Virus record (IMG/VR): IMGVR_UViG_3300019487_000029
Coordinates: 1-64,000 of that record
DNA: 64,000 nucleotides
Strand: one strand, 5' to 3'
DNA from: a virus
Shown here: positions 3,325 to 22,086 of the stretch, one piece after another
Numbering within the stretch: position 1 is the first letter of the stretch
Layout: each line of letters starts with the position of its first letter
The notes under the pieces: model-generated
Seen by the model: only the letters and a program-made list of their open reading frames with translations
Told to the model about the DNA's origin: nothing
The model's database searches: none
Program-made: the position numbers and the translations under genes

Positions 3325-3351
3325 AAGTGTAATTTAAGTCCTGTAATTAGT
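3325..3351. repeat. 24-bp palindromic element, copy 1
   Basis: Contains TTAAGTCCTGTAATTAGT. Arms approximate AGTAATTA/TAATTAGT around TAGTCCTG. Lies in the intergenic stretch before the HNH gene at 3540. Confidence 0.7.
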
Positions 3352-3539
3352 CCCAAAAGCCAATTTTCGCAAAATACCTATATCCCATATGGAGCATATT
3401 GGTATGTGCTATTGGGGATATAGGTATGGAGGATGGAAATAAAATCAGGGCAGGGGAGGCACATAGTTATTATAACATACTTAAAAACAGATGTCAAATA
3501 AAAAGTGAAGAAATATATTTCTTCACATATTTATGGGAT

Positions 3540-3992
3540 ATGAAGAATTGCAAGTATTGTGGAAATCCGTGTAAGAGTATGATAACTTGTCCTTGTGGGA
3601 AATGGGTAGAAGAGCGTGGAAAGTATCAGAGGTCTAAGGCGAAGCGGTTATATTGGAAACAGCCATTTCGGAGGATGCTCAAGGTAATGGTTACGAATAA
3701 TCGCCAGAGGTCGCTTAGAGACCTTCCATTTGCCATTAGAGCGGTTGACTTGGCATTATTGGCCAAGAGGCAGAAAATGCTTTGTGCATTGACCGGGAGG
3801 CGTCTGACGAACGAGAACATATCTCCTGACCATATCATACCGATTTCCAAGGGCGGGACACATGACATAGGGAATATCCGTTTAGTGGACAGGGATGCCA
3901 ACATTGCTCGAGCATCATTATCTGATGAGGATTTCTTGAGGTTATGTAGGGATGTTGTAAAAACTCTTGACAAAGGGGATGGGGGTTGGTAA
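3540..3992 (+). CDS. HNH endonuclease (type E)
   Basis: 150 residues from the ATG at 3540, which lies 5 nt after ATATTTAT (3527-3534). N-terminal zinc knuckle CKYCGNPC...CPCG, basic middle region, then the HNH core CALTGRRL..ISPDHIIPISKGGTHDIGNIRLVDRDANIARASL. In-frame codons after its TAA continue open into the next ORF, suggesting insertion within or beside that gene. Confidence 0.85.
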   Translation: MKNCKYCGNPCKSMITCPCGKWVEERGKYQRSKAKRLYWKQPFRRMLKVMVTNNRQRSLRDLPFAIRAVDLALLAKRQKMLCALTGRRLTNENISPDHIIPISKGGTHDIGNIRLVDRDANIARASLSDEDFLRLCRDVVKTLDKGDGGW

Positions 3993-4073
3993 AGTGAAGA
4001 TGGAATAAGTCATAATAAAAACATTGTTGATAAAATAACGGAAGTTGCTTCCAAAGTTGCCGATGCTCAAAAA

Positions 4074-4382
4074 ATGATGGGAGATTATGACCATGTATTT
4101 GAGATGGTATGTGATCCCAAATCCATACCTGTAGAGCCTTTGGTTTTCTTTACTAGCGATTCTCATATAGGACAATCAGTTGACCATATTCAACCTATAA
4201 AAACGGTTGTACGGCATCCGGGGGTTAAGGTGGAGTATCCTTGTGTATTTCAGTCGAAGCCTAATGGGGTGATGTACAAGTTGAAGATTCCCAAGTCATT
4301 TCCGCCAGCGATAGAGTTGCCGAGTTCGGCGTTTGGGAAGATGGTGATGAAAAAGATTCAGGACTTAAAAAAAGTCTCTTGA
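4074..4382 (+). CDS. Unknown protein, start uncertain
   Basis: 102 residues from the ATG at 4074, but the frame is open back to the HNH stop at 3992 (about 27 further codons, reading NIVDKITEVASKVADAQK just before the ATG) with no ATG there. This may be the 3' part of a gene whose 5' end was displaced by the HNH insertion, or it may use a rare start. No family recognised. Confidence 0.5.
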   Translation: MMGDYDHVFEMVCDPKSIPVEPLVFFTSDSHIGQSVDHIQPIKTVVRHPGVKVEYPCVFQSKPNGVMYKLKIPKSFPPAIELPSSAFGKMVMKKIQDLKKVS

Positions 4383-4419
4383 CACTTTCTATAGAGTAGG
4401 TAAGGTAAGATGTGGATAT

Positions 4420-4593
4420 ATGGATACGTTTCATGTAACAATGAAAAGCCCGAAGGGGATTGAGAAGTTGTTTACTGGTGTGGCTGATTCTTTTGAAGAG
4501 ATTCGGAAGGATGCCGAGCGGGAGTATCCACGTCATGTGATTACGGAGATTGAGAATGCTACCACGGGTGAGACAAAGGAATTTCGTGAATAA
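4420..4593 (+). CDS. Unknown small protein (57 aa)
   Basis: ATG 4420 to TAA 4593; the last codons overlap the GTG start of the methyltransferase (GTGAATAA), suggesting translational coupling. The sequence is acidic and helical (FEEIRKDAEREYP). No family recognised. Confidence 0.6.
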   Translation: MDTFHVTMKSPKGIEKLFTGVADSFEEIRKDAEREYPRHVITEIENATTGETKEFRE

Positions 4594-5392
4594 ATCATTT
4601 TTGAAGTGGGCGGGAGGCAAGAGTTTGCTATTCCCTCAGATTATGGCTTTGGTGCCGCCCGATGAACGCAAGGGGGCATTCATTGAGCCTTTTGTGGGGT
4701 CGGGTGTGGTAGCCTTGAATGCACCATTTGAGCGAATCGTCATCAATGACACCAATGAGGGATTGATGCTTCTGTGGACTGAACTCAAATGGGGTCAAGA
4801 GGACTTCATCGAAGAGTGCCGTGAGTTATTCACCGGCGAGTTCAATAATCAGGTTTCTTTCCAAACCATTCGGGCATCCTTCAACAAGCAGCCATGTGGC
4901 AAGTACTTTTTATACCTCAACCGTCATTGTTTCAATGGGTTATGTCGCTTTAACCTGAAGGGTGAATTCAATGTCCCCTTCGGCAAGTATGACAAGCCCT
5001 ATTTCCCGGAGAAGGAACTGAGGGAAGCTCTTTTGGTCTTGAAGAAGACCAGAATGTACCAATTGGACTTTGGGGATATGATGAACATGGCGGAAGAGGG
5101 CGACGTGGTTTACTGTGACCCGCCTTACTTGCCGCTGTCGGACACTTCCAACTTCACGGCTTATTCCAAGGGTGGGTTCTCTATGGATGATCAAGTGAGA
5201 TTGGTTGACCGTGCTTTGCGGTTGCGTGACCGTGGGGCAACTGTGATTATTTCCAACAATGACACGCCTTTGGCACGGAATCTGTATAAAAAGGCTGATC
5301 ACATTCATTTTCTTCAGGTCGCCAAGCGGATTTCCTGCAAGGCTGATGGACGGAAGAAGTCGGGGGAATTGATGGCGGTGTACCGTCCTTGA
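4586..5392 (+). CDS. dam: DNA adenine methyltransferase, D12 class (Dam-like)
   Basis: 268 residues from GTG 4586, which overlaps the previous stop; the upstream ATG at 4550 would extend antisense-like codons with no family match. The FLKWAGGK start, IEPFVGSGVVAL (SAM-binding motif I), YFLYLNRHCFNGLCRFN and VVYCDPPYLPLS (catalytic DPPY motif) are in the order expected for D12-class N6-adenine methyltransferases such as Dam/T4 Dam. Its length matches the family. It probably methylates adenines in phage DNA to protect it from host restriction or to time replication. Confidence 0.95.
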   Translation: MNKSFLKWAGGKSLLFPQIMALVPPDERKGAFIEPFVGSGVVALNAPFERIVINDTNEGLMLLWTELKWGQEDFIEECRELFTGEFNNQVSFQTIRASFNKQPCGKYFLYLNRHCFNGLCRFNLKGEFNVPFGKYDKPYFPEKELREALLVLKKTRMYQLDFGDMMNMAEEGDVVYCDPPYLPLSDTSNFTAYSKGGFSMDDQVRLVDRALRLRDRGATVIISNNDTPLARNLYKKADHIHFLQVAKRISCKADGRKKSGELMAVYRP

Positions 5393-5397
5393 AGCTT

Positions 5398-5613
5398 ATG
5401 TTGTGCCAAGATGATAGTTGTGACATGAGTCACTGCACGGGTTGTGGTGCTCACATGATGGGTGCCCATTTACCGTTGGGTTCTATTTGCGACAGTTGCA
5501 AGGAATCCATTGGGAGTGAGATGGACCGCTATTCAGAGGCGGCATCTGTCATTATGCAGTATGAAAAAGGTTTAGAAAAAGCCTTGACTACTCGTTCGGG
5601 TAGTGTAAGGTAA
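5398..5613 (+). CDS. Small Cys/His-rich protein
   Basis: 71 residues. CQDDSCDMSHCTGC and CDSC give zinc-ribbon-like cysteine pairs in the first 40 residues, followed by a helix. ATG 5398 is 5 nt after the methyltransferase stop; an in-frame TTG at 5389 overlaps it. Probably the same operon as dam. Function unknown. Confidence 0.6.
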   Translation: MLCQDDSCDMSHCTGCGAHMMGAHLPLGSICDSCKESIGSEMDRYSEAASVIMQYEKGLEKALTTRSGSVR

Positions 5614-5616
5614 GAC

Positions 5617-5850
5617 ATGAACGCAACAACTGAACCGCCTCGTCAAACGAATTTCAAATGCCCGATCTGCGATCACTTGATGGTCGCCCGTGATGGGCAA
5701 GTCTTGGACCCGAAGGATGGAGTCACTGTCTGGTGTGGGAATACGCATGGCTCCGCACCCGGTCAATGTTCAGCACAAGAAGTTGCTGGGCACGGCAACA
5801 ATGAAAAAGCTGCTTACGAAATCATTACTCAGAAATACAAGAAAGGCTGA
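5617..5850 (+). CDS. Small zinc-ribbon protein
   Basis: 77 residues starting 3 nt after the preceding stop. CPIC at residues 15-18 and later single cysteines (WCGN, GQCS) plus histidines suggest a zinc ribbon. Followed after 3 nt by another small ORF, so it is part of a tight rightward operon. Function unknown. Confidence 0.6.
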   Translation: MNATTEPPRQTNFKCPICDHLMVARDGQVLDPKDGVTVWCGNTHGSAPGQCSAQEVAGHGNNEKAAYEIITQKYKKG

Positions 5851-5853
5851 ACT

Positions 5854-6030
5854 ATGACCCCACTCCCTGTCAATCCAAACGTCCTTATCCTCGTTGATAA
5901 GGAAGGCAAAGTCCTTGAAGCTGCAACCAATGTGGCTCCCGACTTGAAGGTTACTGTCACGTCGGATTTGGCTGTTTTCAATGAGGAAGCCAAAGGCAAG
6001 ACTTTCCGGCAGACCACACGGTCCAACTGA
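5854..6030 (+). CDS. Unknown small protein (58 aa)
   Basis: ATG 5854 to TGA 6030, 3 nt behind the previous gene. It reads like a small beta-rich protein (NVLILVDKEGKVLEAATNV). A strong hairpin at 6056-6083 ends the operon. No family recognised. Confidence 0.55.
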   Translation: MTPLPVNPNVLILVDKEGKVLEAATNVAPDLKVTVTSDLAVFNEEAKGKTFRQTTRSN

Positions 6031-6055
6031 TTCACCCCGCAGCGACCTCCACACG

Positions 6056-6083
6056 CAAGCCTCGGACGCAAGTCCGAGGCTTG
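6056..6083. terminator. Perfect 12-bp hairpin, terminator-like
   Basis: CAAGCCTCGGAC-gcaa-GTCCGAGGCTTG between the rightward operon and the leftward HNH gene; only a weak T-run (TTGCTTT) follows. Confidence 0.75.
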
Positions 6084-6088
6084 TTGCT

Positions 6089-6580
6089 TTATATCTTGTG
6101 ATTGGATTTAGCTCCCTCATAGAAGAGTTTTAGTGCATTAAACATTGTAGTTTCGTCATGGATATTTTTTAACCAATTCATTCCTAAACAGCAAAGCACA
6201 ATGTTGGTTTCATCATATCCAATTTTATAATCTATTCGATCAATTGACATAAGTAATGGGTCTTTAGAATAACTTGCTAATTTCATAGGAATTCCTGTGT
6301 AATAACATTTTCCGGCTTGAGATTCGTATATTTTTCTCAGTTCGGTCATTCCTATACTTTTAGTGCAGTTATTTCTATTTCGACAAGACACATGAAGTAT
6401 TTTTGCCAATCGTGTTAAACCTCCCGTCACAGATGTTTCATCCTTCAATGCATTTTTGGTCCATCTTTTAGATTCTAATTTGGAACATTTTTTACACCAA
6501 GAATATAATGTCCCTCGTCTTTTATTAACGTAAAATTCTGTAGAGTCTTTGTTGGTTTTACATTTGGCACAAATTTTCAT
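6089..6580 (-). CDS. HNH homing endonuclease (type B)
   Basis: 163 residues from the ATG at 6580. CAKC/CKKC knuckle, then GKCYYTGIPM, DPLLMSIDRIDY and YDETNIVLCCLGMNWLKN, paralogous to 2693-3211 and 38896-39387. It lies convergently against the operon end at 6030. Confidence 0.85.
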   Translation of the reverse strand: MKICAKCKTNKDSTEFYVNKRRGTLYSWCKKCSKLESKRWTKNALKDETSVTGGLTRLAKILHVSCRNRNNCTKSIGMTELRKIYESQAGKCYYTGIPMKLASYSKDPLLMSIDRIDYKIGYDETNIVLCCLGMNWLKNIHDETTMFNALKLFYEGAKSNHKI

Positions 6581-6695
6581 CAAAGTATAAGTACATTCAG
6601 GATACTATAATGTACTCATATAAAAACAAATAATTTTTGGTTTTTTAGATTTTCAAGTTTGTAATCTCTAATTCGATTATGATCATTTCGATTCG

Positions 6696-6722
6696 ATTAC
6701 TAAATCTAGTCCTGTAATTAGT
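6696..6722. repeat. 24-bp palindromic element, copy 2
   Basis: GATTACTAAATCTAGTCC followed by TGTAATTAGT; same core as the other copies. Confidence 0.7.
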
Positions 6723-6780
6723 AATTCGAGATCAGGGAGAAATTCGAAATAAGTATTAAAAAGGGATGCGTACAAAAAGA

Positions 6781-6850
6781 AGCGGCGGTTGAAGCAACCG
6801 AGTTTCGTATTTCTACGTCTCGGCTGGTATTCAACCGCCGTTATCTCTGT
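6781..6850. ncRNA. Long stable hairpin, possible structured RNA
   Basis: GGCGGTTGAA pairs with TTCAACCGCC, with an inner CCGAG/CTCGG helix. About 65 nt of base-paired structure in a non-coding region. Direction and function unknown. Confidence 0.45.
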
Positions 6851-7184
6851 CGTCTGATTCCGTTGCCCGTTTTGGTATCGGTATGCTTTATACGGATTCT
6901 TCAGCAGCTACCGGGTCTGCTAAGGCTTCTCTTACAGAGATTCGTTAAATCTGGCTCACGTTTGCTTGCTGGTTTCCCAACGTCGCTACTTGGGTTTTGC
7001 CAAACTTAACTTGCGACAACCTTACCACTTTCATGGCAGATGTCAAATTATTTTTTCAAAAACTTTGACAGCATCGGATTCAATATGGCAGTTGATCCGA
7101 CAGACTGGAGATTTATTTTACTGATATTTTCTACCTTGTCAAATTAAATCCCTCTTTTTATTTCAAAGAGGGATATTTATGGGC

Positions 7185-7550
7185 ATGAAATGTTTGTATT
7201 GTCAAGAAGAGTTTTCGCCTCGTCGAAGAGATCAAATTTATTGTAGAAAGCGATGTGGTAGTAGAGCAAGTGCATTACGAACCGGATCAAAAGAAAGAGC
7301 CGACAGACGATGTAGTTGGAAAAAGCAAGGAATTATTTTTACTTTTGAAGAATATCTAAAAATGATGGCGGTTCAAAAGCAAAAATGTAAAATTTGTCAA
7401 GGTCAATTTTCATCTTTAGAAGTTGATCATGATCATGTGTCGGGCAAAGTCCGAGGATTGCTCTGTGGAAATTGTAATCGGGGAATTGGGCATTTCAAAG
7501 ATAATACCAAATCTTTGCAACGAGCAATTTATTATCTAAAAAAAGAATGA
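7185..7550 (+). CDS. Recombination endonuclease VII-like protein
   Basis: 121 residues from ATG 7185 (an ATG at 7179 is inside the ATATTTAT leader motif). An N-terminal CLYCQEEFSPRR..YCRKRC zinc motif precedes CKICQ...LEVDHDHVSGKVRGLLCGNCNR, the DHDH core of the T4 endonuclease VII family, followed by LQRAIYYLKK. It could be a Holliday-junction-type nuclease or a homing relative; its isolated position and its leader motif, shared with the HNH genes, favour a homing role. Confidence 0.85.
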   Translation: MKCLYCQEEFSPRRRDQIYCRKRCGSRASALRTGSKERADRRCSWKKQGIIFTFEEYLKMMAVQKQKCKICQGQFSSLEVDHDHVSGKVRGLLCGNCNRGIGHFKDNTKSLQRAIYYLKKE

Positions 7551-7577
7551 AGGCGTCCTCAACGGACGCCTTCATTC
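7545..7577. terminator. Bidirectional 14-bp hairpin terminator
   Basis: GAATGAAGGCGTCC pairs with GGACGCCTTCATTC across a 5-nt loop. It separates the convergent genes ending at 7550 (+) and 7594 (-). Confidence 0.8.
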
Positions 7578-7593
7578 CGGGTTGGCCGGTGAC

Positions 7594-8019
7594 TTAGGCA
7601 GTCACGGGAGCCGCTTCAGTGGCGGGAGCAGCTTCGGGAGCCTGGGCGATCACGGGAGCAGCGGGAGCAAGCAGAGCCGCTTTCGTCGCTTCATAGTCCG
7701 CCGTGGGCTTCGCCGGGGCGATGGAAACGCTGACCTTGGACTTGATGGCAGTCTTCAGAGCGTTCATCTTGGACCGGCGGATGTACACGAACGTCTTGCG
7801 ACCCAAGCCCTTCTTGGAATTCGACTCACGGGTTTCGTCCTTCACGAGAACGATTTCCGACTTGCCTTTGCGGGCGAAATCCCGCTTGAGGAACTTGCGA
7901 AGCGTCAACGGTGTGACGTGCTCGTTCGCCTCGACCAGATCGGCGAAGGTGAACTTTCGGCTGGGGATGCTGATCTCAGCCATTGGACGACCGGGACCAC
8001 GTTGCGATTTGTTTTTCAT
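7594..8019 (-). CDS. Putative DNA-binding protein with Ala/Pro-rich tail
   Basis: 141 residues. The basic N-terminus contains RGPGRP, an AT-hook-like element. The middle has a possible helix-turn-helix (HVTPLTLRKFLKRDFARKG) followed by basic residues. The last 35 residues are Ala/Pro/Val-rich and low complexity. Histone-like or nucleoid-associated function is possible but not proven. Base composition is higher in GC than its neighbours. Confidence 0.6.
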   Translation of the reverse strand: MKNKSQRGPGRPMAEISIPSRKFTFADLVEANEHVTPLTLRKFLKRDFARKGKSEIVLVKDETRESNSKKGLGRKTFVYIRRSKMNALKTAIKSKVSVSIAPAKPTADYEATKAALLAPAAPVIAQAPEAAPATEAAPVTA

Positions 8020-8216
8020 GCTGTTTGTTGTGTTTGTTGTTTACTGACGTTACGAGATGAATATATCCGATCCCGTATGATTGTCAAATTCTTTTTGCAC
8101 TTTTTTATCAGTTGCGAATTTAGACTTAATAATCACGGCGGGACTATATCTATCTACGCAAAAATGTCAACAAGTATTTTCAAAATCTTTTGAAGAGGAG
8201 ACCACATCCGGCCAAG

Positions 8217-8239
8217 GTAAGTACAGCCCTGTAATTAGT
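8217..8239. repeat. 24-bp palindromic element, copy 3
   Basis: GTAAGTACAGCCCTGTAATT then AGT; flanked by short GGCC inverted repeats and ACATC/GATGT. Confidence 0.75.
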
Positions 8240-8282
8240 CCGGCCAGCAGGACCACGGAGATGTGGATGTTGGGGTAGAAAA

Positions 8283-8308
8283 GCAAAAACCCCCGCAAAG
8301 CGAGGGTT
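8283..8308 (-). terminator. Rho-independent terminator of the leftward operon
   Basis: On the minus strand ACCCTCGC-ttt-GCGGGGGT followed by TTTTGC; lies just past the stop of the gene at 8335-8577. Confidence 0.8.
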
Positions 8309-8334
8309 CTTGACGAGATGTGAGGAGGACCAGC

Positions 8335-8577
8335 TTAGGTCTGGCTGGCTACGGGTGTCTTGGCCGGAAGCCCAATCTTGCCCATGAACTTCACTTCCTT
8401 GAAGAGAAAGGTCTTGATTGATGTCCGATTGGAGGCTTGATCCCAATGTTCACCAACGACGTAGTTGGCAGCGGAGGTTGGGTCTTGACCATAGCCAATG
8501 CAGAGGAATTGGGTATTGGCGTCGATTTGGGTGACGAAGCATTGACCGATGATGGTGTTTGGATCGATGTGCAGCAT
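8335..8577 (-). CDS. Unknown protein (80 aa)
   Basis: Begins MLHIDPNTIIGQCFVTQIDA; mixed alpha/beta character, no motif recognised. It follows the gene at 8599-9015 by 21 nt on the same strand and precedes a terminator, so it is the last gene of a leftward operon. Confidence 0.6.
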   Translation of the reverse strand: MLHIDPNTIIGQCFVTQIDANTQFLCIGYGQDPTSAANYVVGEHWDQASNRTSIKTFLFKEVKFMGKIGLPAKTPVASQT

Positions 8578-8598
8578 AACTGTTCTTCTTGTTGTTGT

Positions 8599-9015
8599 TT
8601 AGGGGTTGGGGAGACCGTCGCCGATTTTTGCTACCTCGGCAACGAAATCACTATAAATCTTGTTGTTGGTGTTCCCATTCTTCTCCATCTCTTCAATCTC
8701 TTTGCGTCGCCATGTGGGGAGTTTGTCCAATACGATTTGGCGGGCACGCACGTATGGATTCTTGTCAGTGGAAGCCAACTTATCCTTCAGCTTCTCGGAA
8801 TCATCCTTCTTGGGGACCGATGTCTTCTTGGCTTTCTTGGCGGCTTCTTCGGCTAGGATTTCAAATCCTTCAGCACAGAGAGCTTGAATCAGTTTGTCAA
8901 CGGGGAGGTCGGGTGGACCAACCATACCGCCTTCTTTCCGCAGTTGAGCCATGCGGTCAGTGTACTTCTTGAAATTGTCCTCGTTCTCCTCAGTTTTCTT
9001 CATAGACTTTCCCAT
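8599..9015 (-). CDS. Unknown charged helical protein
   Basis: 138 residues from ATG 9015 (MGKSMKKTEENEDN). Largely helical with Lys/Glu-rich segments (EEAAKKAKKTSVPKKDDSEKLKDK). The start lies inside the end of the small upstream ORF at 8990-9121. No family recognised. Confidence 0.65.
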   Translation of the reverse strand: MGKSMKKTEENEDNFKKYTDRMAQLRKEGGMVGPPDLPVDKLIQALCAEGFEILAEEAAKKAKKTSVPKKDDSEKLKDKLASTDKNPYVRARQIVLDKLPTWRRKEIEEMEKNGNTNNKIYSDFVAEVAKIGDGLPNP

Positions 9016-9121
9016 AGCGTCCTCGCCGCCTATACCCACGACCCTTCGCCGGCCTCTCAATCTTTGTCGGAGGAGGCGTAGGTTTGCGGATCGATTTGTA
9101 GATGGCGAGTTGCCCTTTCAT
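8990..9121 (-). CDS. Small basic protein (43 aa)
   Basis: ATG at 9121 follows ATATTTAT on the minus strand after 6 nt, the recurrent leader motif. Encodes a Pro/Arg/Lys-rich peptide (RKPTPPPTKIERPAKGRGY) and overlaps the next gene by 26 nt, consistent with coupling. Confidence 0.55.
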   Translation of the reverse strand: MKGQLAIYKSIRKPTPPPTKIERPAKGRGYRRRGRYGKVYEEN

Positions 9122-9154
9122 ACTGAATAAATATCGCAGAGTTTACCCGAATTG

Positions 9155-9634
9155 TCAAACCTTCTTTAGAAATGAATTTCTTTCCGAGACTGCTTTTTTC
9201 AATGTTTCAAAAGTTCCAACATTGATTAAATCTCCCCGAATTGAAATTTGTACACGGTACTTTTTGTAAAAAGGATATTTTTTGGAATTGGTTGCGATGA
9301 TGTATCGTGGAAGACCGCTTTTCTTTCCACGAATTCCACGGTTTTGATTACTCACCAAACGGGTTACAAACCGACAATTTGAGGGAGAATAATCACCGTC
9401 ATTGTTAATACGGTCAATACATAGTGATTGTCTGTACCCGTTTAGAAGTGCCCATTTGATAAAGGATGTTGGTGAGATTGTCCATTGATGGCAAACGGCT
9501 ATTCCTCGTTTTCCGTAATTGCGGAAATCCTTATCATCTTTGTTATAACAACGAGATAACATTCGTATCCATTTAACAAGTAGCGGATGCCACTTAAACT
9601 TTGATGTATAATTTTGTTGGTTTCCCTTTGACAT
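9155..9634 (-). CDS. HNH/AP2-type homing endonuclease
   Basis: 159 residues. WIRMLSRCYN..DFRNYGKRGIAVCHQW..FIKWAL..GY..SLCIDRINNDGDYSPSNCRFV is the hallmark HNH arrangement of phage AP2/HNH endonucleases; the C-terminal YKKYRVQISIRGDLINVGTF resembles an AP2-like DNA-binding segment. Its start lies 40 bp inside the end of the upstream gene. Confidence 0.85.
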   Translation of the reverse strand: MSKGNQQNYTSKFKWHPLLVKWIRMLSRCYNKDDKDFRNYGKRGIAVCHQWTISPTSFIKWALLNGYRQSLCIDRINNDGDYSPSNCRFVTRLVSNQNRGIRGKKSGLPRYIIATNSKKYPFYKKYRVQISIRGDLINVGTFETLKKAVSERNSFLKKV

Positions 9635-10112
9635 TTCGTCTTTCCTCCCTTACAAATTTGATTTTGTTAGTACTCAAAGCATCTTTCATAAAAATAGATG
9701 CTGTAGCATATTGTATGCCATTTTTTTCAGCCAGTTCGATGGTACTGAATTCACCGACTGGAACAACAACTGCCTTGGCTGGCTTGGCTTCCTCTTCCGC
9801 CGCACCGGCAGCTTCCTTGGTCAAGTCTTCATACGCCTTCATCGCACGAGCACGGTTATTATAGGACCATGCGATGAATCCGAACTGACTTGTCCCCGGA
9901 TACTTTTCTTGATCATCCTCGGTGACAGTCTGGAAAACCTTGGTGCCCTTGGGGAGAATCTTGATGCGAAAGACTTCATAGTCCTTTGGAACCCCATTAC
10001 GGGACCGCTCATAGATGGCGGTGGTTTCGCTTCGGGCAAGCTGAGTGTATGTGAGAGGGTCTGTTGAGAATCCACCCTCACCTGATACGAAAGTCTTTTC
10101 GAGTTTAATCAT
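9594..10112 (-). CDS. Unknown protein with acidic/Ala-rich middle
   Basis: About 172 residues from ATG 10112, which overlaps the end of the upstream nuclease gene by 8 nt (GTG 10124 is an alternative). The first half is beta-rich (VFRIKILPKGTKVFQTVTED); an AAGAAEEEAKPAKAV linker precedes a C-terminal segment that looks like a winged-helix (STIELAEKNGIQYATASIFM). Function unknown. Confidence 0.65.
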   Translation of the reverse strand: MIKLEKTFVSGEGGFSTDPLTYTQLARSETTAIYERSRNGVPKDYEVFRIKILPKGTKVFQTVTEDDQEKYPGTSQFGFIAWSYNNRARAMKAYEDLTKEAAGAAEEEAKPAKAVVVPVGEFSTIELAEKNGIQYATASIFMKDALSTNKIKFVREERRNVKGKPTKLYIKV

Positions 10113-10717: not shown

Positions 10718-10726
10718 GTGTATGTT

Positions 10727-14993: not shown

Positions 14994-15017
14994 GGAGGAT
15001 ACATTAGCAGAGTTGTC

Positions 15018-15134: not shown

Positions 15135-15141
15135 AGTTGTT

Positions 15142-15342
15142 TCACCGAAGAACTTCTTTGGCCGGGGCATCCACGAATGTAAGGGAATCTCTGCCCTCGT
15201 CGAACCCTTCCGTTTTGATCAGACGGGCATGAACCCGCTCAATAGTGATCGGACGATTGGATTGGAAGACTGTTACGGTTGGTCCGCAGTTGTCAAAGTG
15301 AATAATGACGGTCTGCTTGAACTTAAATCGTTTTCGTTTCAT
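15142..15342 (-). CDS. Unknown small basic protein (66 aa)
   Basis: MKRKRFKFKQTVIIHFDNCG, then TVTVFQSNRPITIERVHARL: a small beta protein with a basic N-terminus. Leftward, 7 bp upstream of the 38-aa ORF. No family recognised. Confidence 0.55.
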   Translation of the reverse strand: MKRKRFKFKQTVIIHFDNCGPTVTVFQSNRPITIERVHARLIKTEGFDEGRDSLTFVDAPAKEVLR

Positions 15343-15441
15343 AATCCCCACGTTACATCTTTATAGAAACTCTGTCAAATGTTTTTTTCTTGTTGACAAA
15401 AGAATATGGAAGTGTAAATTGATTTCGTAACGAGAAGACAC

Positions 15442-15469
15442 TTGACATTCTCCGAAGAACACGTAAAGT
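15442..15469 (+). promoter_or_regulatory. Sigma70-like promoter
   Basis: TTGACA, 16-nt spacer, TAAAGT; ATG 15479 follows after 9 nt. Confidence 0.75.
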
Positions 15470-15478
15470 AACAACACT

Positions 15479-15718
15479 ATGAGCAAACAAAAGTACCCTC
15501 AAACGGCATCAGCTTCAACCACTGGTGGGGTCGCACGGTCAACCAAGCGGCAACACTACTCACACGCCAAGGCGGATGCGAGAAAAGATCGCAAGCGTCT
15601 GGAAGCCCAGCTTGCCAGTGAAAAGGCGGCTCAGGTCAAGACCGCCCCGCTGACCAGTGAGCAGAAGGGTGCTAAGGTCGTGAAGAACGCCAAGGCTGCC
15701 GTCGCTGCGGCACACTAA
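15479..15718 (+). CDS. Small basic Ala/Lys-rich protein (79 aa)
   Basis: MSKQKYPQTASASTTGGVAR then KADARKDRKRLEAQLASEKA; low-complexity, strongly basic, ending AVAAAH. Could be a nucleoid or RNA-binding protein. Directly behind a promoter, so probably highly expressed; no family recognised. Confidence 0.6.
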   Translation: MSKQKYPQTASASTTGGVARSTKRQHYSHAKADARKDRKRLEAQLASEKAAQVKTAPLTSEQKGAKVVKNAKAAVAAAH

Positions 15719-15820
15719 CAACAATTTTGCCTCTCGTTCCCATTGCGACTACGTATCGAGGGAGCGGGCGTCTCTGAAAGACGTAACTGCGAAGGGTTTG
15801 GCAAACAGCTTTCAAACAAC

Positions 15821-16171
15821 ATGAAGATCACTATCAGCAAAGCCGAAATGCTCCGAGTCATGTCGGAACACTTTCGTATCGAAGTCACCGAAGTTGTTAT
15901 CTCCAAAAACAACAGTGCCGTGGTGGATAACTTCCTCACCAAGATGGCAAAGGAGATGGGAACTACCAACATCACCGAAGGAATGTTGGGTGGTGCGAAC
16001 AAAATCCCCGCTATCAAAGCCCTCCGCACTGTCACCAGCTACGGACTGGCTGAGGCAAAGTGGGCGGTGGAGAATTGGGGTGCCTACATCAAGGCATACA
16101 CCAAATTCGGACGCCAGCCCAAGATTGAAGGGAACTGCATGTCCTACGGAGAAGGACCGAAGCTCCTGTAA
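15821..16171 (+). CDS. Ribosomal protein bL12 C-terminal-domain-like protein
   Basis: 116 residues from ATG 15821. GGANKIPAIKALRTVTSYGL followed by AEAKWAVENWG aligns by eye with the bL12 C-terminal domain pattern (ANK.AVIK.VR..TGLGLKEAK.LVE), the surface that recruits translational GTPases. The N-terminal 65 residues do not resemble the bL12 stalk-dimerisation region. It could compete with or replace host bL12 on ribosomes during infection. Recognised from the motif only. Confidence 0.65.
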   Translation: MKITISKAEMLRVMSEHFRIEVTEVVISKNNSAVVDNFLTKMAKEMGTTNITEGMLGGANKIPAIKALRTVTSYGLAEAKWAVENWGAYIKAYTKFGRQPKIEGNCMSYGEGPKLL

Positions 16172-16223
16172 ATTTGGCTGTCAAGTCGTTGTAGCCTAAA
16201 GGCTCCGCTTCAGTCATAAGACG

Positions 16224-16254
16224 CCCTCGCTCGACCGTTTCGAGCGGGGGTTTC
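16224..16254 (+). terminator. Rho-independent terminator
   Basis: CCCTCGCTCGA pairs with TCGAGCGGGGG, then TTT. Confidence 0.8.
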
Positions 16255-16310
16255 TGCTTTTCACCGATCATCTTTCCCAATCACCGAACTCCCATCCATT
16301 GCCCGGCCTA

Positions 16311-16334
16311 AGTAATTGTAGTGCTGTAATTAGT
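16311..16334. repeat. 24-bp palindromic element, copy 6
   Basis: AGTAATTGTAGTGCTGTAAT then TAGT, bracketed by CCGGCC and GGCCGG. Confidence 0.8.
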
Positions 16335-16380
16335 AATGGCCGGGAGGTCCAGACATCTCGGCTCTTCAGAAAATTTCCTC

Positions 16381-16407
16381 TTGACTTTTTTCTGCCTAAC
16401 ATATAGT
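16381..16407 (+). promoter_or_regulatory. Sigma70-like promoter, leaderless arrangement
   Basis: TTGACT, 15-nt spacer, TATAGT; ATG 16414 starts 6 nt after the -10 box. Confidence 0.75.
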
Positions 16408-16413
16408 TCAGCA

Positions 16414-16650
16414 ATGAATAAATGGAAATTCGTATCTTTGACGGAAGGCTTTCAGCCGATCCCCGTTGACTCCTTCATGGAGGCTTGGGATGCGATGTTC
16501 AAGTGGATCAAGGATGCCGTTGCCCAAGGTCAGCTTGATTGGCAAATCTTGGAGACTGCCATTTGGATTGAACAACCAAACAGCAAACCACTGTTCTTTT
16601 ATGACGCTCGTGATCGGGCGATTGACAACGGATGGACTGAACCCAAATAA
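16414..16650 (+). CDS. Unknown protein (78 aa)
   Basis: MNKWKFVSLTEGFQPIPVDS..., rich in Trp, reading as an alpha/beta protein. The start is fixed by the promoter at 16381. 9 nt upstream of the next gene. No family recognised. Confidence 0.65.
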   Translation: MNKWKFVSLTEGFQPIPVDSFMEAWDAMFKWIKDAVAQGQLDWQILETAIWIEQPNSKPLFFYDARDRAIDNGWTEPK

Positions 16651-16659
16651 CTTTTCAAC

Positions 16660-17079
16660 ATGAAATACACCTACCGCTACGACATTCAAGGCAATGGAGA
16701 TAGCCATTACCTTCACATGTATTTTGATCGCCCACTCGCCGCCTCGTCTTTCTATCGTCACAACGATGATGTCAGTCCGAAGGATCGGGAACTCAGCGAC
16801 GCCATTGCTCACACTCCCAATGTCCTCTGCAACGACCAGTTCGCAGGTACGGGTGAGTTGAGTGGGGCTTCTGCGGAACTCATTCACGTTGATGGCACGG
16901 CGTTGACGGTCAAAATCGTTCCTCACCGAAACGTACCCGAAATTGCCAAACAGATTGTCAAGAAGGTGCAGCGTCGTTTGGCTCCCAAAGAATCTCGCCG
17001 CCGAGTCCTCAAAGCGACGTTGGACGCTTATGTGAAGCGTCTCAACGAACGCACTTACGGCAAACCCCGTAATACGTAA
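16660..17079 (+). CDS. Unknown protein (139 aa)
   Basis: MKYTYRYDIQGNGDSHYLHM...; beta-rich first half and a basic helical C-terminus (KKVQRRLAPKESRRRVLKAT). Second gene of the operon starting at 16414, followed by a terminator. No family recognised. Confidence 0.65.
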   Translation: MKYTYRYDIQGNGDSHYLHMYFDRPLAASSFYRHNDDVSPKDRELSDAIAHTPNVLCNDQFAGTGELSGASAELIHVDGTALTVKIVPHRNVPEIAKQIVKKVQRRLAPKESRRRVLKATLDAYVKRLNERTYGKPRNT

Positions 17080-17116
17080 GCCTCTCCGTCAGGAGTTAAG
17101 GCAAGTCGTATCCACG

Positions 17117-17146
17117 AAAGCCCGGAGCAATCCGGGCTTTTTGCTT
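17117..17146 (+). terminator. Rho-independent terminator
   Basis: AAAGCCCGGA-gcaa-TCCGGGCTTT followed by TTGCTTTT. Confidence 0.9.
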
Positions 17147-17189
17147 TTCACCGATCATCACCGAACTCGTGGTCCTCTTCCGGGCAGGG

Positions 17190-17211
17190 GAATTATAGTC
17201 CTGTAATTAGT
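17190..17211. repeat. 24-bp palindromic element, copy 7
   Basis: AATTATAGTCCTGTAATTAG core, bracketed by CCGGGCAGG and CCTGAAAAGCCGGG. Confidence 0.85.
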
Positions 17212-17257
17212 CTCCTGAAAAGCCGGGTGATGTCGAGGTCTCGAAGTGAAATAGTTG

Positions 17258-17285
17258 TTGACAAAAGTATAATAAAGACTAGAGT
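17258..17285 (+). promoter_or_regulatory. Sigma70-like promoter, leaderless arrangement
   Basis: TTGACA, 16-nt spacer, TAGAGT; ATG 17293 follows after 7 nt. Almost identical to the promoter at 10690. Confidence 0.85.
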
Positions 17286-17292
17286 GAAATAC

Positions 17293-18252
17293 ATGAGTCA
17301 TGCTATTTTAAGAATGTTTCAAGGGGCAATCGCCTTTATCGGACCTGAAACGGAGGTTCGTCGGGCAGACTTACTTGTCAACAAGTGGGATGCCATTCAC
17401 ACCAAGGTACAAACCATCTTTGATGATGGGCTGACCTATTGCAATCACTGCATGAGTCTGTACATCCAACACGATGCTTCGTGCTGGCGTGATATGGAAG
17501 ACTTGTTTCGTCGCACCAAACTTCAAGGCAAGACTGCGAAGACTATTCGGAAGAAAGCCGATTACTTCACCAAGCACTTTTGGAAAGTCCTTCATCGTCA
17601 CCCCGATCTCGCCAAGATCGAGCGAGAAAACGATTTCAAGAATGGCACGCCTTGGGATGAACAGTTTCGGGTTGACTCTTCGCTCTGCATCTGGTGGATG
17701 AATTACTACTTCGCCACACACGATGCGGAACTCAACGTCCCTCCCTTTCCTCTCTACACGGTGGAGGAAGATCATGCAAAAATCCTCGCTAATGCCAAGA
17801 AACTTGAACGGAGGATGAAAGGGAATCGCAAGGAACCCAAGTTCACCATCAAGGCAAGTGAGGTAAAGTTGGAAGTTCAAGCTCGTGATGACTGTTGGAT
17901 CAAGTTTGAATGGGATGACCTTTCCAATGCGTGTGAATTGATGGGCTTGTTTGAAACGAGCGGGTGGACTGCACGGGATGGAACTCATTACGACCATACC
18001 AAAGCTCCTCGGAAGAAACTCAACAAGATGTTTCCTCATGCCGAGATTGAGTGCATGGATACGCCCTCAAATCTTTACGGGGACACGAACAATTGGTTTT
18101 ACGTGTACTTCCATTGGAAGCCCGAACACTTCTCGTGGGCACAAGTCCGTAAAGCTGAACGGGCTATGAAAGAACTCGTGGTGCCCCGCCTCGGCACGTT
18201 TCGTCCGGCAGACAAGCCCAAGAAATATCAAGTGGTGACGTTGAAATTCTAA
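17293..18252 (+). CDS. Unknown protein (319 aa)
   Basis: From ATG 17293. Contains YCNHCMSLYIQHDASCWRDM, a possible metal site, basic helices (KLQGKTAKTIRKKADYF), and a C-terminal half rich in Trp/Phe/Asp. No family recognised. First gene after the palindromic element and promoter, followed at 35 nt by an independent promoter and gene. Confidence 0.75.
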   Translation: MSHAILRMFQGAIAFIGPETEVRRADLLVNKWDAIHTKVQTIFDDGLTYCNHCMSLYIQHDASCWRDMEDLFRRTKLQGKTAKTIRKKADYFTKHFWKVLHRHPDLAKIERENDFKNGTPWDEQFRVDSSLCIWWMNYYFATHDAELNVPPFPLYTVEEDHAKILANAKKLERRMKGNRKEPKFTIKASEVKLEVQARDDCWIKFEWDDLSNACELMGLFETSGWTARDGTHYDHTKAPRKKLNKMFPHAEIECMDTPSNLYGDTNNWFYVYFHWKPEHFSWAQVRKAERAMKELVVPRLGTFRPADKPKKYQVVTLKF

Positions 18253-18279
18253 TTGACAAAAGGATACAAAAGGCATACT
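18253..18279 (+). promoter_or_regulatory. Sigma70-like promoter, leaderless arrangement
   Basis: TTGACA, 15-nt spacer, CATACT; ATG 18288 follows after 8 nt. Confidence 0.7.
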
Positions 18280-18287
18280 GTCACTCC

Positions 18288-18587
18288 ATGAACGCAGCCA
18301 AAAAAGCAAAGATGGATAAAGAGCTTGAGGTAGTGGCTTTGGAAGCCGTGTTGAAGCACAAGAAGTCCAAGCTCTACGCCAAAGTTAATCACGAGGACAA
18401 TTTCTCCTTGGTCATGGCTCCGGTGGCTCGTGATGCCATTATGGAGGAACTCGGCTTGCTGGATACCGCCGATGACGTGGACTGGATCAATGAAATGTGC
18501 CGCAAGCCGTATGGCAAGTCCGTTGACTATCTCGATGCTTTCGCCCGCAATGTCAGTCGCACTGCATATCAACAACTCAGAGCATGA
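18288..18587 (+). CDS. Unknown helical protein (99 aa)
   Basis: MNAAKKAKMDKELEVVALEA...; mainly helical. Overlaps the start of the DUF262 gene (ATGA), so the two are translationally coupled and may act together. No family recognised. Confidence 0.65.
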   Translation: MNAAKKAKMDKELEVVALEAVLKHKKSKLYAKVNHEDNFSLVMAPVARDAIMEELGLLDTADDVDWINEMCRKPYGKSVDYLDAFARNVSRTAYQQLRA

Positions 18588-19273
18588 AACTTTCCTTCAA
18601 ACAACTTGAAAAGCGGTTCACCCCAATGCCAACGTATCGGGTGAACATCCCGTGGGATCACCTTGAGGAGAATTTGCAGCGGTACATTGACCGTGGTTCG
18701 AACGGCACTGCTGCACTTGATTTGGAACCCGACTTCCAACGTGAGCACGTATGGACTCCTGAGCAGCAAGTCAAGTATGTGGAGTACATCCTTTCGGGCG
18801 GCATGAGCGGAAGGGAAATCTACTTCAATTGCGTGGGGTGGATGAAGGATTGGAAGGGACCATTCGTGATTGTGGATGGGAAGCAGCGGCTTCATGCGGC
18901 TCGGCTCTTCATGGATAACAAACTTCAAGTGTTTGGAAAAAAGGTTGAAGTTAAACCTTGCATGTTAGCCCCGATGGGAGGAGAAGAAATCCAAGATGGG
19001 TACTTCCGCAAGGACATTGAGGGTCGCCTCTCACTCAACGCCCAATTCATCTTTGCGGTGAACGACCTGAAGACTCGTGCTGAAGTCCTCAAATGGTATT
19101 TGGAGATGAACACGGGTGGAACTCCTCACACGGCAACGGAAATCGCACGGGTCAAGAATCTTCTCACGAGTGAAGCTCCTCAAATGCCTCACTGCCCCAT
19201 GTGCAAAGGCGAAGTGGAATTAGATGGAAGTGGTGGATACAACTGCTTCTTCTGCGGTCACTCCTTCAAGTAA
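18584..19273 (+). CDS. DUF262 (ParB/GmrSD-N-like) protein with C-terminal zinc ribbon
   Basis: 229 residues. LDLEPDFQREHVWTPEQQVK, VIVDGKQRLHA and NTGGTPHTATEIARV are the DUF262 landmarks (the ParB-like nuclease fold found at the N-terminus of GmrSD). The C-terminus adds CPMCKGEVELDGSGGYNCFF, a CxxC-x-CxxC ribbon. Phage DUF262 proteins alone lack the HNH DUF1524 domain, as here. It may act on nucleotides or modified DNA; function not established. Confidence 0.8.
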   Translation: MKLSFKQLEKRFTPMPTYRVNIPWDHLEENLQRYIDRGSNGTAALDLEPDFQREHVWTPEQQVKYVEYILSGGMSGREIYFNCVGWMKDWKGPFVIVDGKQRLHAARLFMDNKLQVFGKKVEVKPCMLAPMGGEEIQDGYFRKDIEGRLSLNAQFIFAVNDLKTRAEVLKWYLEMNTGGTPHTATEIARVKNLLTSEAPQMPHCPMCKGEVELDGSGGYNCFFCGHSFK

Positions 19274-19295
19274 AATCACCGAATTCACCGATCAG

Positions 19296-19325
19296 AAGCC
19301 CGGATTTCTCCGGGCTTTTTTGTTT
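19296..19325 (+). terminator. Rho-independent terminator
   Basis: AAGCCCGGA-tttc-TCCGGGCTT followed by TTTTGTTTTT. A second hairpin, GCCCGGACAT/ATGTCCGGC, follows at about 19340. Confidence 0.9.
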
Positions 19326-19368
19326 TTCACCGACCAGAAAGCCCGGACATTTGATGTCCGGCTGGAGG

Positions 19369-19389
19369 AATTACAGGACTAGAATTAGT
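19369..19389. repeat. 24-bp palindromic element, copy 8 (reverse orientation)
   Basis: AATTACAGGACTAGAATTAG, the reverse complement of the usual orientation, next to GCCCGGACAT/ATGTCCGGC. Confidence 0.8.
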
Positions 19390-19413
19390 ATCGAGATGGC
19401 CGGCTCTTCGAAA

Positions 19414-19992
19414 TCACAAGAACATGTTGGGCAACTTGCCAAGGAAGTTCTCCAGACTTTGGAATGGACCGAGTGGCTGACCCTTTTTCTCTTTCTTATC
19501 AACCTTCGGCTCTCCCGAAGAGAGCTTGTAAGTCACTACACCATCTTGAATTACGAAGAGTGCTCGGAACGACCATCCTGTTATGTGGGTATTCTTCTTG
19601 AACCCCATTGCATCCATAGGAAGAGAACCAAACCTCTTCTTGTTGGTGGACTCAATGATCAGTTCGTATCCCTTGCAACAGTCCTTGGCTTTCAAGCACT
19701 CCAAGATGTCGCTCGGCAAATCTTCTTTGGTAATGGATTGGCTTGGGAAGAACCTCTGAAGCACATCAAGGTATGTGAGAACTTTGATGTTGGGACTATG
19801 AAGTGGATCGAACCCCATCACCGAAAGGTTACTGACAGTGGTCACATGAGGAATGACTTGCTCGAACGACGCCAACGCCTCCTCATAACTCCTCCATTTG
19901 TTGTCGGGGGAGACTCGTTCAGTTGGGAGGAGAGACTGACAGCCGGTGGTCAGAAGGACCAAGAGCATGAGGAGCGATAAAAGCGTCTTCAT
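19414..19992 (-). CDS. Lipoprotein (signal peptidase II type)
   Basis: 192 residues from ATG 19992. MKTLLSLLMLLVLLTTGCQS is a lipobox signal peptide (cleavage before Cys16). The mature part is mixed alpha/beta with CLKAKDCCKGYELIIEST and KKNTHITGWSFRALFVIQDG. A phage-made cell-envelope lipoprotein; superinfection exclusion is a possible role. An in-frame start further upstream would bury the signal peptide. Confidence 0.8.
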   Translation of the reverse strand: MKTLLSLLMLLVLLTTGCQSLLPTERVSPDNKWRSYEEALASFEQVIPHVTTVSNLSVMGFDPLHSPNIKVLTYLDVLQRFFPSQSITKEDLPSDILECLKAKDCCKGYELIIESTNKKRFGSLPMDAMGFKKNTHITGWSFRALFVIQDGVVTYKLSSGEPKVDKKEKKGQPLGPFQSLENFLGKLPNMFL

Positions 19993-20065
19993 AGAATGGA
20001 TTACCCCTAATAAATATAGTGAAATCAACCGTTTCACCGATCACCCGGCCTCCTGAAGAGCGAGT

Positions 20066-20086
20066 TTTTATAGTCCTGTAAATACT
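20066..20086. repeat. 24-bp palindromic element, copy 9
   Basis: TTTTATAGTCCTGTAAATAC, flanked by CCCGGCC and AGCCGGGC. Confidence 0.75.
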
Positions 20087-20277
20087 AGCCGGGCGTGCTC
20101 TTCGGATGTCGGTCTCGAACAGCCAGTTGTGAATGAATCTTTTAGGGGACTTCCCTAATACCTTGGGTAGTAGTGAGTACGAATAAAATAACTTTTGACT
20201 TTGTGAACACGAAAGGATACAGTAATGACGTAACACTGAAACAGTGAACCGACAATAACAACCAAGAAACAAATCGA

Positions 20278-20862
20278 ATGAAATACACTCAAAAGTTCGC
20301 ATGGCTCGCCGTGCTCGCCCTCACCCTCCTCGCCCTCCCCGCTTTCGCTGACAACGACAAGCATGACAAGTGTCACAAGAACCATCGTTGCGACAATCGT
20401 TGCCACGGCAACCATCACAACAACCACGTCTGCAATGCTCAATGCCACTCGTGCTGCACCGTGACCTTCACCGTGACCAACACCGTCGTTCAGTTCCGCA
20501 CGAACACGATTCACGTTCCCGTGTACGAAACGAACATCGTGACGGAAGTCGTGACCAACATCGTTGAGGCGTCTTTGGACGATGCGTCCGTCAACTACAC
20601 GCTGCTTGAACGTCATCGCTACGGCTTTTATGTGTGGAATGGCAAGCGTTGGGCGGCTAATGGTGCCATCATCAGTGCTTCCAATCAAGTCGTTCGCATC
20701 AGCGTTCCCGGTTATTTGGTCCGCCCCACTCCGCTCATTTGGCAGCTTGTGGACGTGACTGCGGGATTCCCTCGTACGGCAGTGCCCGCTGAGGAACCCG
20801 TTGCTCTACCGAACCTTTCCTTCGTGGCGATGAACGGTCGCCTCTATCGGGTGCTCCGCTGA
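20278..20862 (+). CDS. Secreted His/Cys-rich protein
   Basis: 194 residues. A Sec signal peptide (AWLAVLALTLLALPAFA) is followed at residues 25-60 by a dense His/Cys/Asn segment (DKCHKNHRCDNRCHGNHHNN...CNAQCHSCC), a likely metal-binding region. Then a Thr/Val-rich beta segment (TVTFTVTNTVVQFRTNTIHV) and a globular C-terminus. It could chelate metal in the periplasm or outside the cell. No family recognised. Confidence 0.8.
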   Translation: MKYTQKFAWLAVLALTLLALPAFADNDKHDKCHKNHRCDNRCHGNHHNNHVCNAQCHSCCTVTFTVTNTVVQFRTNTIHVPVYETNIVTEVVTNIVEASLDDASVNYTLLERHRYGFYVWNGKRWAANGAIISASNQVVRISVPGYLVRPTPLIWQLVDVTAGFPRTAVPAEEPVALPNLSFVAMNGRLYRVLR

Positions 20863-20883
20863 TTCACCGATTCCCCTCCCCGC

Positions 20884-20917
20884 CCCCCCGCTCGCAAGAG
20901 TCGGGGGTTTTTTGTTT
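20884..20917 (+). terminator. Rho-independent terminator
   Basis: CCCCCGCTC-gcaa-GAGTCGGGGG followed by TTTTTTG. Confidence 0.9.
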
Positions 20918-20924
20918 TTATCCC

Positions 20925-20952
20925 TTGACATTATTATACAAAAGAGTAGATT
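20925..20952 (+). promoter_or_regulatory. Sigma70-like promoter, leaderless arrangement
   Basis: TTGACA, 16-nt spacer, TAGATT; ATG 20959 follows after 6 nt. Confidence 0.8.
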
Positions 20953-20958
20953 GCTCAC

Positions 20959-21213
20959 ATGGCACAAGTAAAAATCAATTTCCCTAGTGACGCAGCGGCA
21001 AAGGAGTTTTGCACTTGGCTCTGTGAGCAAGGCGAGCAAGACTATTGGGGTTGGATGGAAATCTGCGATCCATCCAAGGAGAAGACGGTTGTCTTCAAGT
21101 ATCACGCTCCATTGGACATGAGCTTCCCGCAAGACGACAAACGCAGATACAAAAACGCCACGTTCTGCCCTAACTTTGAAATCGGCACTAACCTTTACAA
21201 CTTCACTGAATGA
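20959..21213 (+). CDS. Unknown protein (84 aa)
   Basis: MAQVKINFPSDAAAKEFCTW...; reads as a small alpha/beta protein with several Trp. Overlaps the next gene by ATGA. No family recognised. Confidence 0.65.
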   Translation: MAQVKINFPSDAAAKEFCTWLCEQGEQDYWGWMEICDPSKEKTVVFKYHAPLDMSFPQDDKRRYKNATFCPNFEIGTNLYNFTE

Positions 21214-21404
21214 AAACCGCCCTTGCACTAACGGCTCAACGATTTGAATCTGCGAGTCATCGCACTGAAGAATACCTTTCATGGCATCGCAATTTCAAGC
21301 GAGCCTTCACCAAGTTCCTCACCGAGAAAGGAGCCAAGGACATCTTCCGGGCAAGTAATTATAGTCCTGTAATTCCCTTGGCCGGACATCAGCCCGGTCA
21401 ATGA
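21210..21404 (+). CDS. Small protein whose 3' end covers a palindromic element
   Basis: 64 residues; the first 45 are basic and helical (RRTEEYLSWHRNFKRAF-like). The last codons run through palindromic copy 10 (21353-21374), so either the element is tolerated in coding sequence or the C-terminus is not conserved. No family recognised. Confidence 0.5.
   Translation: MKTALALTAQRFESASHRTEEYLSWHRNFKRAFTKFLTEKGAKDIFRASNYSPVIPLAGHQPGQ
21353..21374. repeat. 24-bp palindromic element, copy 10
   Basis: AAGTAATTATAGTCCTGTAA then TT, bracketed by CCGGGC and GGCCGG. Confidence 0.8.
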
Positions 21405-21437
21405 GGAACTCCTCCCCGAACCAAGCGGATGGGACTT

Positions 21438-22028
21438 TTATCCCATAAAGCGATTCCCTTTTAGAATGTTTTCAATCTTCAGTTTCGGTTGAAGGTTTTT
21501 TAGTGCCCAACATTCTTTGAATTGAGGGTCATCCGTGTCATCATATTTGAACCAAGACTTAGGAATTACGTGGTCAACCTGCCAATGACTACCATAATTT
21601 TCCCATGACATATCTCCGGAGAAGTGACTTTCAAGATGAGATGCTAATTCACCGATTGTATATCCAACCAAAGCTTCCCATTTCCTAAATCCCTTCATGG
21701 CTCTTAAAGCATGATACATATTACCACGTAGATTATTGCTCAAGCGGTGCATCGGGTCTTCCATTGCCTTCCGATCCCACTTACGCTTCCATAAACGACG
21801 CTTCAATTTCATTTCGGGCGTATTCAAATATGCCTTAAACTTCATAGCGTTCTTTCGCTTCCATTGCTTACTTCTTTCGGCAATGTCTTTTTTTCTTATG
21901 GGATACTTACTTTTGGAGTAATCACTACAACATGCTCTGCACCATACATGCAGACCATCTTTACCCCTCCCCCTGTAGAAATCAGTAGTCAATTTATCTA
22001 GTTGACACTTATTACATCGTCGATTCAT
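21438..22028 (-). CDS. HNH homing endonuclease (type A)
   Basis: 196 residues, closely paralogous to 162-758: both share a KWDRKAM..P.HRLSNN.RGN segment, a WE.LVGYT segment, VDHVIPKSWFKYDDTDDP and LKNLQPKLKIENILKGNRFM. N-terminal CNKC/CRAC knuckle. ATATTTAT lies 5 nt before the ATG on the minus strand. Confidence 0.9.
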   Translation of the reverse strand: MNRRCNKCQLDKLTTDFYRGRGKDGLHVWCRACCSDYSKSKYPIRKKDIAERSKQWKRKNAMKFKAYLNTPEMKLKRRLWKRKWDRKAMEDPMHRLSNNLRGNMYHALRAMKGFRKWEALVGYTIGELASHLESHFSGDMSWENYGSHWQVDHVIPKSWFKYDDTDDPQFKECWALKNLQPKLKIENILKGNRFMG

Positions 22029-22062
22029 TCACTATAAATATACTCGTCTTCACCGAAACGAG

Positions 22063-22086
22063 AGTAATTACAGGACTAGAATTAGT
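22063..22086. repeat. 24-bp palindromic element, copy 11 (reverse orientation)
   Basis: AGTAATTACAGGACTAGAAT then TAGT. A partial match (GTAATTACAGG) lies at about 22251, upstream of the next gene. Confidence 0.8.

Follow-up and report, generated by a model that had tools for sequence, protein, structure and literature searches.

We analysed a stretch of 64,000 nucleotides (i.e., the window) out of the 65,620 bases of one IMG/VR virus record, IMGVR_UViG_3300019487_000029, which is classed as linear and is a fragment. The window is probably from a large phage whose complete genome is larger than the record. We found that the window contains 11 near-identical copies of a 24-letter palindrome, AGTAATTATAGTCCTGTAATTAGT, which span positions 3328-22086. 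The first-pass annotation of this DNA had listed eleven copies, all of which are present and lie 1-3 bp or less from the positions it gave, and it had proposed a genome-wide scan for the motif. With a position weight matrix built from the copies, the 11 sites score 28.0-34.6 bits, while the next match in the window scores 13.4 bits and the best score in a reversed-sequence control is 10.3 bits. Dinucleotide shuffles contained 0 copies, and none is expected by chance. The scan returned these 11 sites only, all with an invariant CTGTAA, and there is no 12th copy anywhere in the 65,620-base record, including the bases outside the window. Thus, the claim that none occurs beyond ~22.3 kb holds for this record only, where the copies occupy one third of the sequence, since the record is a fragment.

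In the common orientation the consensus reads AGTAATTATAG-TC-CTGTAATTAGT, and dyad matches average 8.0 of 12 pairs compared with 3 by chance. The invariant CTGTAA lies in the right half while the left half is variable, and the central dinucleotide is TC in eight copies, CC in two, and TG in one. Both orientations occur, as had been noted, though unevenly (nine copies on the + strand and two on the - strand). The site has two imperfect arms of 11 bp on either side of a 2-bp centre. With one arm conserved better than the other and both orientations present, it resembles the sites of serine recombinases, and the copies could be crossover sites at which a site-specific recombinase inverts or shuffles early units. 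Recombining serine-type sites require matching centres. The centres here differ from copy to copy, and neither an identical centre nor a cognate recombinase was found; no recombinase family is present among the proteins scanned with Pfam, which come from an incomplete genome. We regard crossover sites as very unlikely. In addition to the full copies, two isolated half-sites, CCTGTAATT, occur at 10381-10393 and at 22250-22262, and the second of these precedes the start codon of gene 22280 by approximately 20 bp.

Ten of the 11 copies are intergenic (P = 7e-7 for at least 10 of 11, given that 19% of the region is intergenic), which bears out the earlier description of copies mostly in gaps between operons except at 21354..21377 (+), where the copy overlaps the last codons of a small open reading frame (ORF; 21210-21404) that is convergent with an HNH-type gene. 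The gaps that hold copies include tandem, divergent, and convergent types. Copies at 3328..3351 (+), which has lost its GC arms, and 6699..6722 (+) each lie between two divergent HNH-type genes, and the copy at 22063..22086 (-) lies in a divergent gap before another (21438-22028, - strand). The idea that homing-endonuclease genes are attracted to the palindrome was rejected since sites are not enriched in the gaps adjoining them (Fisher p = 1).

Where the flanks are intact, the palindrome sits inside a boundary cassette with a fixed order, from an intrinsic terminator through the palindrome to a TTGACA-type promoter. Terminators and promoters are called here as consensus matches (i.e., predicted). 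Complete predicted cassettes surround three copies. The copy at 8216..8239 (+) is the centre of a cassette that runs on the - strand between - strand genes, with a terminator at 8284..8312 (-) and the promoter TTGACA-N16-TATAGT at 8143..8170 (-). The other two run on the + strand, with a terminator at 16223..16251, the palindrome at 16311..16334, and TTGACT-N15-TATAGT at 16381..16407 in one, and a terminator at 17118..17139, the palindrome at 17188..17211, and TTGACA-N16-TAGAGT at 17258..17285 in the other. Two further copies have a terminator only: 11851..11874 (+), upstream of a GIY-YIG gene and preceded by AAGCCCGGAGAAATCCGGGCTT at 11782..11803 (+), and 19366..19389 (-), which lies in a convergent gap without an adjoining promoter and has its terminator at 19296..19317 (+). 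The terminator hairpin ends 44 nt from the palindrome at 8216, 47 nt at 11851, 48 nt at both 17188 and 19366, and 59 nt at 16311.

On the promoter side, the palindrome lies 45 nt from the TTGAC(A/T) hexamer at 8216 and 46 nt from it at both 16311 and 17188, which puts the predicted starts 91.5, 91.5, and 92.5 bp downstream of the dyad centre, respectively. When copies were placed at random in their own gaps, agreement within 1 nt in three of the five promoter gaps had P = 1.5e-3 (a post hoc test). The other two, both in divergent gaps, break the spacing: 14226..14249 (+) is 54 nt from a TTGACA at 14171 (-), and 20063..20086 (+) is 108 nt from a TTGACT at 20195 (+). The suggested check against early start sites gives a consistent position in three copies and another spacing in these two. 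The promoter-side spacers of the three complete cassettes share 26-40% identity, which is near background, so that length was preserved as the sequence drifted.

In contrast, the terminator-side flanks are homologous between copies, with best pairs scoring 34-54 in local alignment while the 99% level of the null is 21. The flank of 8216 matches those of 16311 and 17188 only when it is reversed, which indicates that the cassette turns with transcription. The alternative for the cassette, that flank words keep a + strand polarity whatever the cassette direction, was rejected on the same observation. The palindrome itself is opposite to both adjoining genes at 8216 and agrees with its genes at 11851, 16311, and 17188. 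Flanks that are significantly alike, a cassette that turns with its genes, and a region crowded with unknown ORFs and genes for mobile endonucleases would also be expected if recombination between boundary cassettes simply moves early genes around, with the palindrome as the most conserved stretch or a hot spot and no regulator involved. However, the palindrome survives at 3328, 6699, and 22063, where the flanks are lost, and the flanks have diverged far more than the 24-mer. The 24-mer thus appears to be conserved for its own sake, and we consider shuffling without a regulator a possible but unlikely account.

The arrangement recalls the composite early promoter/stem-loop terminator cassettes (PeSLs) of T4-like phages, which were reportedly described by Arbiol in 2010 and Comeau in 2014. 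In both systems, an intrinsic terminator and a sigma-70-type early promoter are combined in an intergenic cassette that recurs, and the surrounding region abounds in mobile endonucleases and small genes of unknown function. In T4-like phages, PeSLs lie in hyperplastic regions and mediate gene shuffling by recombination. A terminator and an early sigma-70-like promoter are indeed predicted together in several copies here (the three complete cassettes). Unlike PeSLs, the cassettes hold a conserved 24-bp dyad between the terminator and the promoter, a dyad that is still present in copies whose flanks have disappeared, and no relationship of the cassette sequence to T4 was demonstrated. No core T4 gene was seen in the fragment, and the protein encoded at 37250-38881 shows a distant similarity (21-29% identity) to proteins that large phages of Vibrio and Aeromonas encode. 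By analogy, the cassette may work like a PeSL to which an operator has been added.

We favour the reading in which the palindrome, set amid the boundary cassettes of an early region, serves as operator for a dimeric DNA-binding protein that is sequence-specific and probably encoded by the phage, and we give this reading a probability of roughly 0.55. A putative dimeric protein would bind the 24-bp palindrome in the early, host sigma-70-type part of the genome, at the middle of a cassette that runs from the terminator through approximately 47 nt to the palindrome and through approximately 46 nt to the promoter. Once bound, it would control the adjoining promoter from about -92 and/or act as a roadblock that insulates neighbouring units, and the cassettes may owe their spread to duplication or recombination, in the manner of PeSLs. 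Three promoters have the site at a constant ~92 bp upstream, as would suit a promoter-linked regulator, while a roadblock or insulating role would explain the promoter-less convergent copies. The first-pass annotation had offered three readings of the palindrome, and an operator for a phage regulator is the best supported of them (a dyad, intergenic, 45-46 nt before a promoter in three copies). Replication or packaging iterons, the second reading, fit poorly with copies that occur singly at operon boundaries over a span of 19 kb.

Several observations weigh against an operator. Since CTGTAA is invariant in one half and its counterpart is not, the site falls short of the symmetry of a simple dimer operator, and a strong TTGACA-type promoter lies within 110 nt of only five of the 11 copies, with the spacing broken at 14226 and 20063 and two copies in convergent gaps. 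Furthermore, no binding protein was identified, and DNA-pattern and protein searches of IMG/VR returned no related phage with the site. Pfam and PHROGs recognised no candidate repressor in the early region, and no lysogeny gene was seen. The product of 7594-8019, beside the cassette at 8216, was the one candidate considered as the binder and was set aside, since it was assigned to no family, gave no convincing solved relative, and yielded a poor structure model with a predicted local distance difference test (pLDDT) score of 45.

The palindrome site and its putative binding protein are new, while the type of arrangement has precedents in other phages. With the L5-type operators/stoperators of cluster A mycobacteriophages, one regulator likewise has many sites across the operon boundaries of a phage genome, both at promoters and in promoter-less gaps (PMC9283540). 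Those sites are asymmetric, 13 bp long, and oriented with transcription (PMC9283540), whereas the sites described here are 24-bp dyads whose orientation is not strictly tied to transcription, with 8216 opposite to its neighbours. The binder of stoperators is a phage immunity repressor. The class I intergenic repeats of the halovirus HF2 are also confined to an early/middle arm, where they lie in gaps and mark transcription units, but they contain the promoter themselves, with an archaeal TATA box (PMC8707807), while the palindrome lies ~46 nt from a bacterial-type promoter. If the operator reading is true, one dispersed operator in cassettes of fixed geometry coordinates many small early units in a large, uncultured phage that carries genes for tRNAs, a tmRNA, and an L7/L12-like protein. 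The 24-bp site would then serve as bait for a global early-gene regulator in a lineage without close characterised relatives, and the cassette would be suited to reporters.

The third reading of the first-pass annotation was an RNA processing site. An RNA element read from the + strand (i.e., a processing site or a structured RNA) would be in keeping with some left-half changes that preserve G-U pairing and with the 9 of 11 copies in + orientation. However, intact copies lie between the upstream terminator and the next promoter, where little RNA is expected, and copies lie between two - strand genes (8216) and in convergent gaps. RNA processing therefore fits poorly. There is also no Rfam family at the palindrome sites, and exchanging the flanks of different copies left folding undiminished at 25-45 nt (p 0.3-0.6) and reduced it only slightly at 15 nt (p = 0.03). 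We consider an RNA element extremely unlikely. The same test bears on the GCCGG/CCGGC inverted repeats in which many copies had been described as nested. CCGG occurs at 13.1 per kb beside the copies compared with 1.6 per kb elsewhere, approximately 8-fold more, so the enrichment stands; arms specific to each copy and folding as hairpins or cruciforms are not supported. The GC arms are an enriched word, not a demonstrated copy-specific hairpin. A repeat like a repetitive extragenic palindrome or a miniature inverted-repeat transposable element, in which the whole element forms a hairpin or carries terminal inverted repeats, was rejected on this result as well. Beside the palindrome at 6699, the non-coding segment 6760-7150 contains a stable-looking GCGGCGGTTGA..TCAACCGCCG stem, a possible structured RNA with no Rfam match.

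A second motif, TCACCGA, shares the territory of the palindrome. We found 32 copies before 22.14 kb compared with 3.3 expected; 31 of these are on the + strand (817..22137) and one on the - strand, where 2.0 were expected on the + strand (P = 4e-26). It is found alike in + genes, - genes, and gaps, so its strand bias is independent of gene direction, and the + strand polarity that was rejected for the cassette stands for TCACCGA. Beyond 22.2 kb the heptamer is ordinary (five copies on the + strand and four on the -), and its one-base variants are mostly at background, the highest being TCACCAA with 7 compared with 1. TCACCGA often occurs within TTTCACCGA. It is a co-distributed companion of the palindrome, not a demonstrated member of the same system, and its 31:1 strand polarity is a separate anomaly that deserves explanation; possible roles include a strand-polar Chi-like, FtsK-orienting polar sequence (KOPS)-like, primase-like, nick-like, or orientation signal on one arm.

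Both motif classes end at 22.06-22.13 kb, and 10 of the 31 heptamers lie just left of a palindrome. The palindromes might accordingly be dispersed sites, centromere-like or used in partition, replication, or DNA entry, which would distinguish one arm and form with TCACCGA a DNA-level polarity system, since the heptamer keeps its strand whatever the gene direction. We hold this to be improbable: the palindrome cassette follows the direction of transcription and not the + strand, the window has no recognised par or replication gene, and the majority of heptamers lie away from any palindrome. Slightly less improbable, but still doubtful, is that the two motifs serve, besides regulation, as a DNA system read by phage proteins that treat the 22-kb early arm differently; such roles may include ordered DNA entry, partition, strand-specific nicking, or replication.

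Motif content is not the only respect in which the first 22.2 kb stands apart from the remainder of the window. Synonymous codon use in the two parts is poorly correlated (0.26 for relative synonymous codon usage; 0 of 500 shuffles gave as large a difference), third-position GC is 58% in the first 22.2 kb and 42% in the rest, and TTGACA-promoters are 2.5 times as dense (1.04 per kb compared with 0.41, p = 0.004). A chimeric contig joined at ~22.8 kb, despite these codon-usage and tetranucleotide differences, is less likely than one genome, since genes at 23-29 kb have intermediate codon use, a start motif, (A/C)TATTTAT...ATG, is common to both parts, the HNH genes are similar, and homologues of both parts occur in one large phage. 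Our data suggest an early arm driven by host polymerase and a later arm of one genome, with a misjoin at ~22.8 kb being possible. The start motif lies closely before ATG at 29353 (-), 30240, 38895 (-), 46923, 52964, 56842, and 58624, and also at 771 (-), 864, 7173, 9134 (-), and 22041 (-), and several endonuclease genes use it. It likely represents a second (late) promoter class that gives nearly leaderless mRNAs. A long non-coding stretch at 22800-23160, with GATAGGG/CCCTATC repeats and GTTTACTGTATAAA..TTTATACAGTTTAC dyads, lies near a sign flip of the GC skew and near the end of both motif families and of the left-type codon usage, and is a candidate origin or module junction.

No close relative of the phage was found in the phage collection. 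Exact DNA patterns run against IMG/VR gave matches that, where examined, look like single chance matches without the repeated motif and flanks. IMG/VR protein searches with 33424-37248, 17314-18252, and 7594-8019 found no relative, and the last had none in genome_contigs either, while 18584-19273 matched a 485-kb phage and one shorter contig. Proteins from either half of the window have distant relatives in LR745208, the public record of that phage (GmrSD-like, 42%; methylase, 33%; ATP-grasp, 30%; and HNH genes), and the record contains neither the palindrome nor the strand bias of TCACCGA.

The window also contains a tmRNA gene, 22 tRNA genes (ARAGORN), a Dam-type methylase gene, and genes for ATP-grasp, ADP-ribosylglycohydrolase, trypsin-like, and SpoU-type proteins. 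In the phage protein encoded at 15821-16171, Pfam identifies the C-terminal domain of ribosomal L7/L12 (5.6e-7), and 22280-22789 gives a second, weak L7/L12 match (E = 0.006). Approximately 10 HNH-type or GIY-YIG genes lie in the first 22 kb, some assigned to families by profile scan and the rest by reading translations and by repeat similarity. Free-standing genes of these types are dense at 162-22028 and at 46-63 kb, and endonuclease gene copies from the two halves are alike in DNA (14655-14712 and 56676-56733, 83%).

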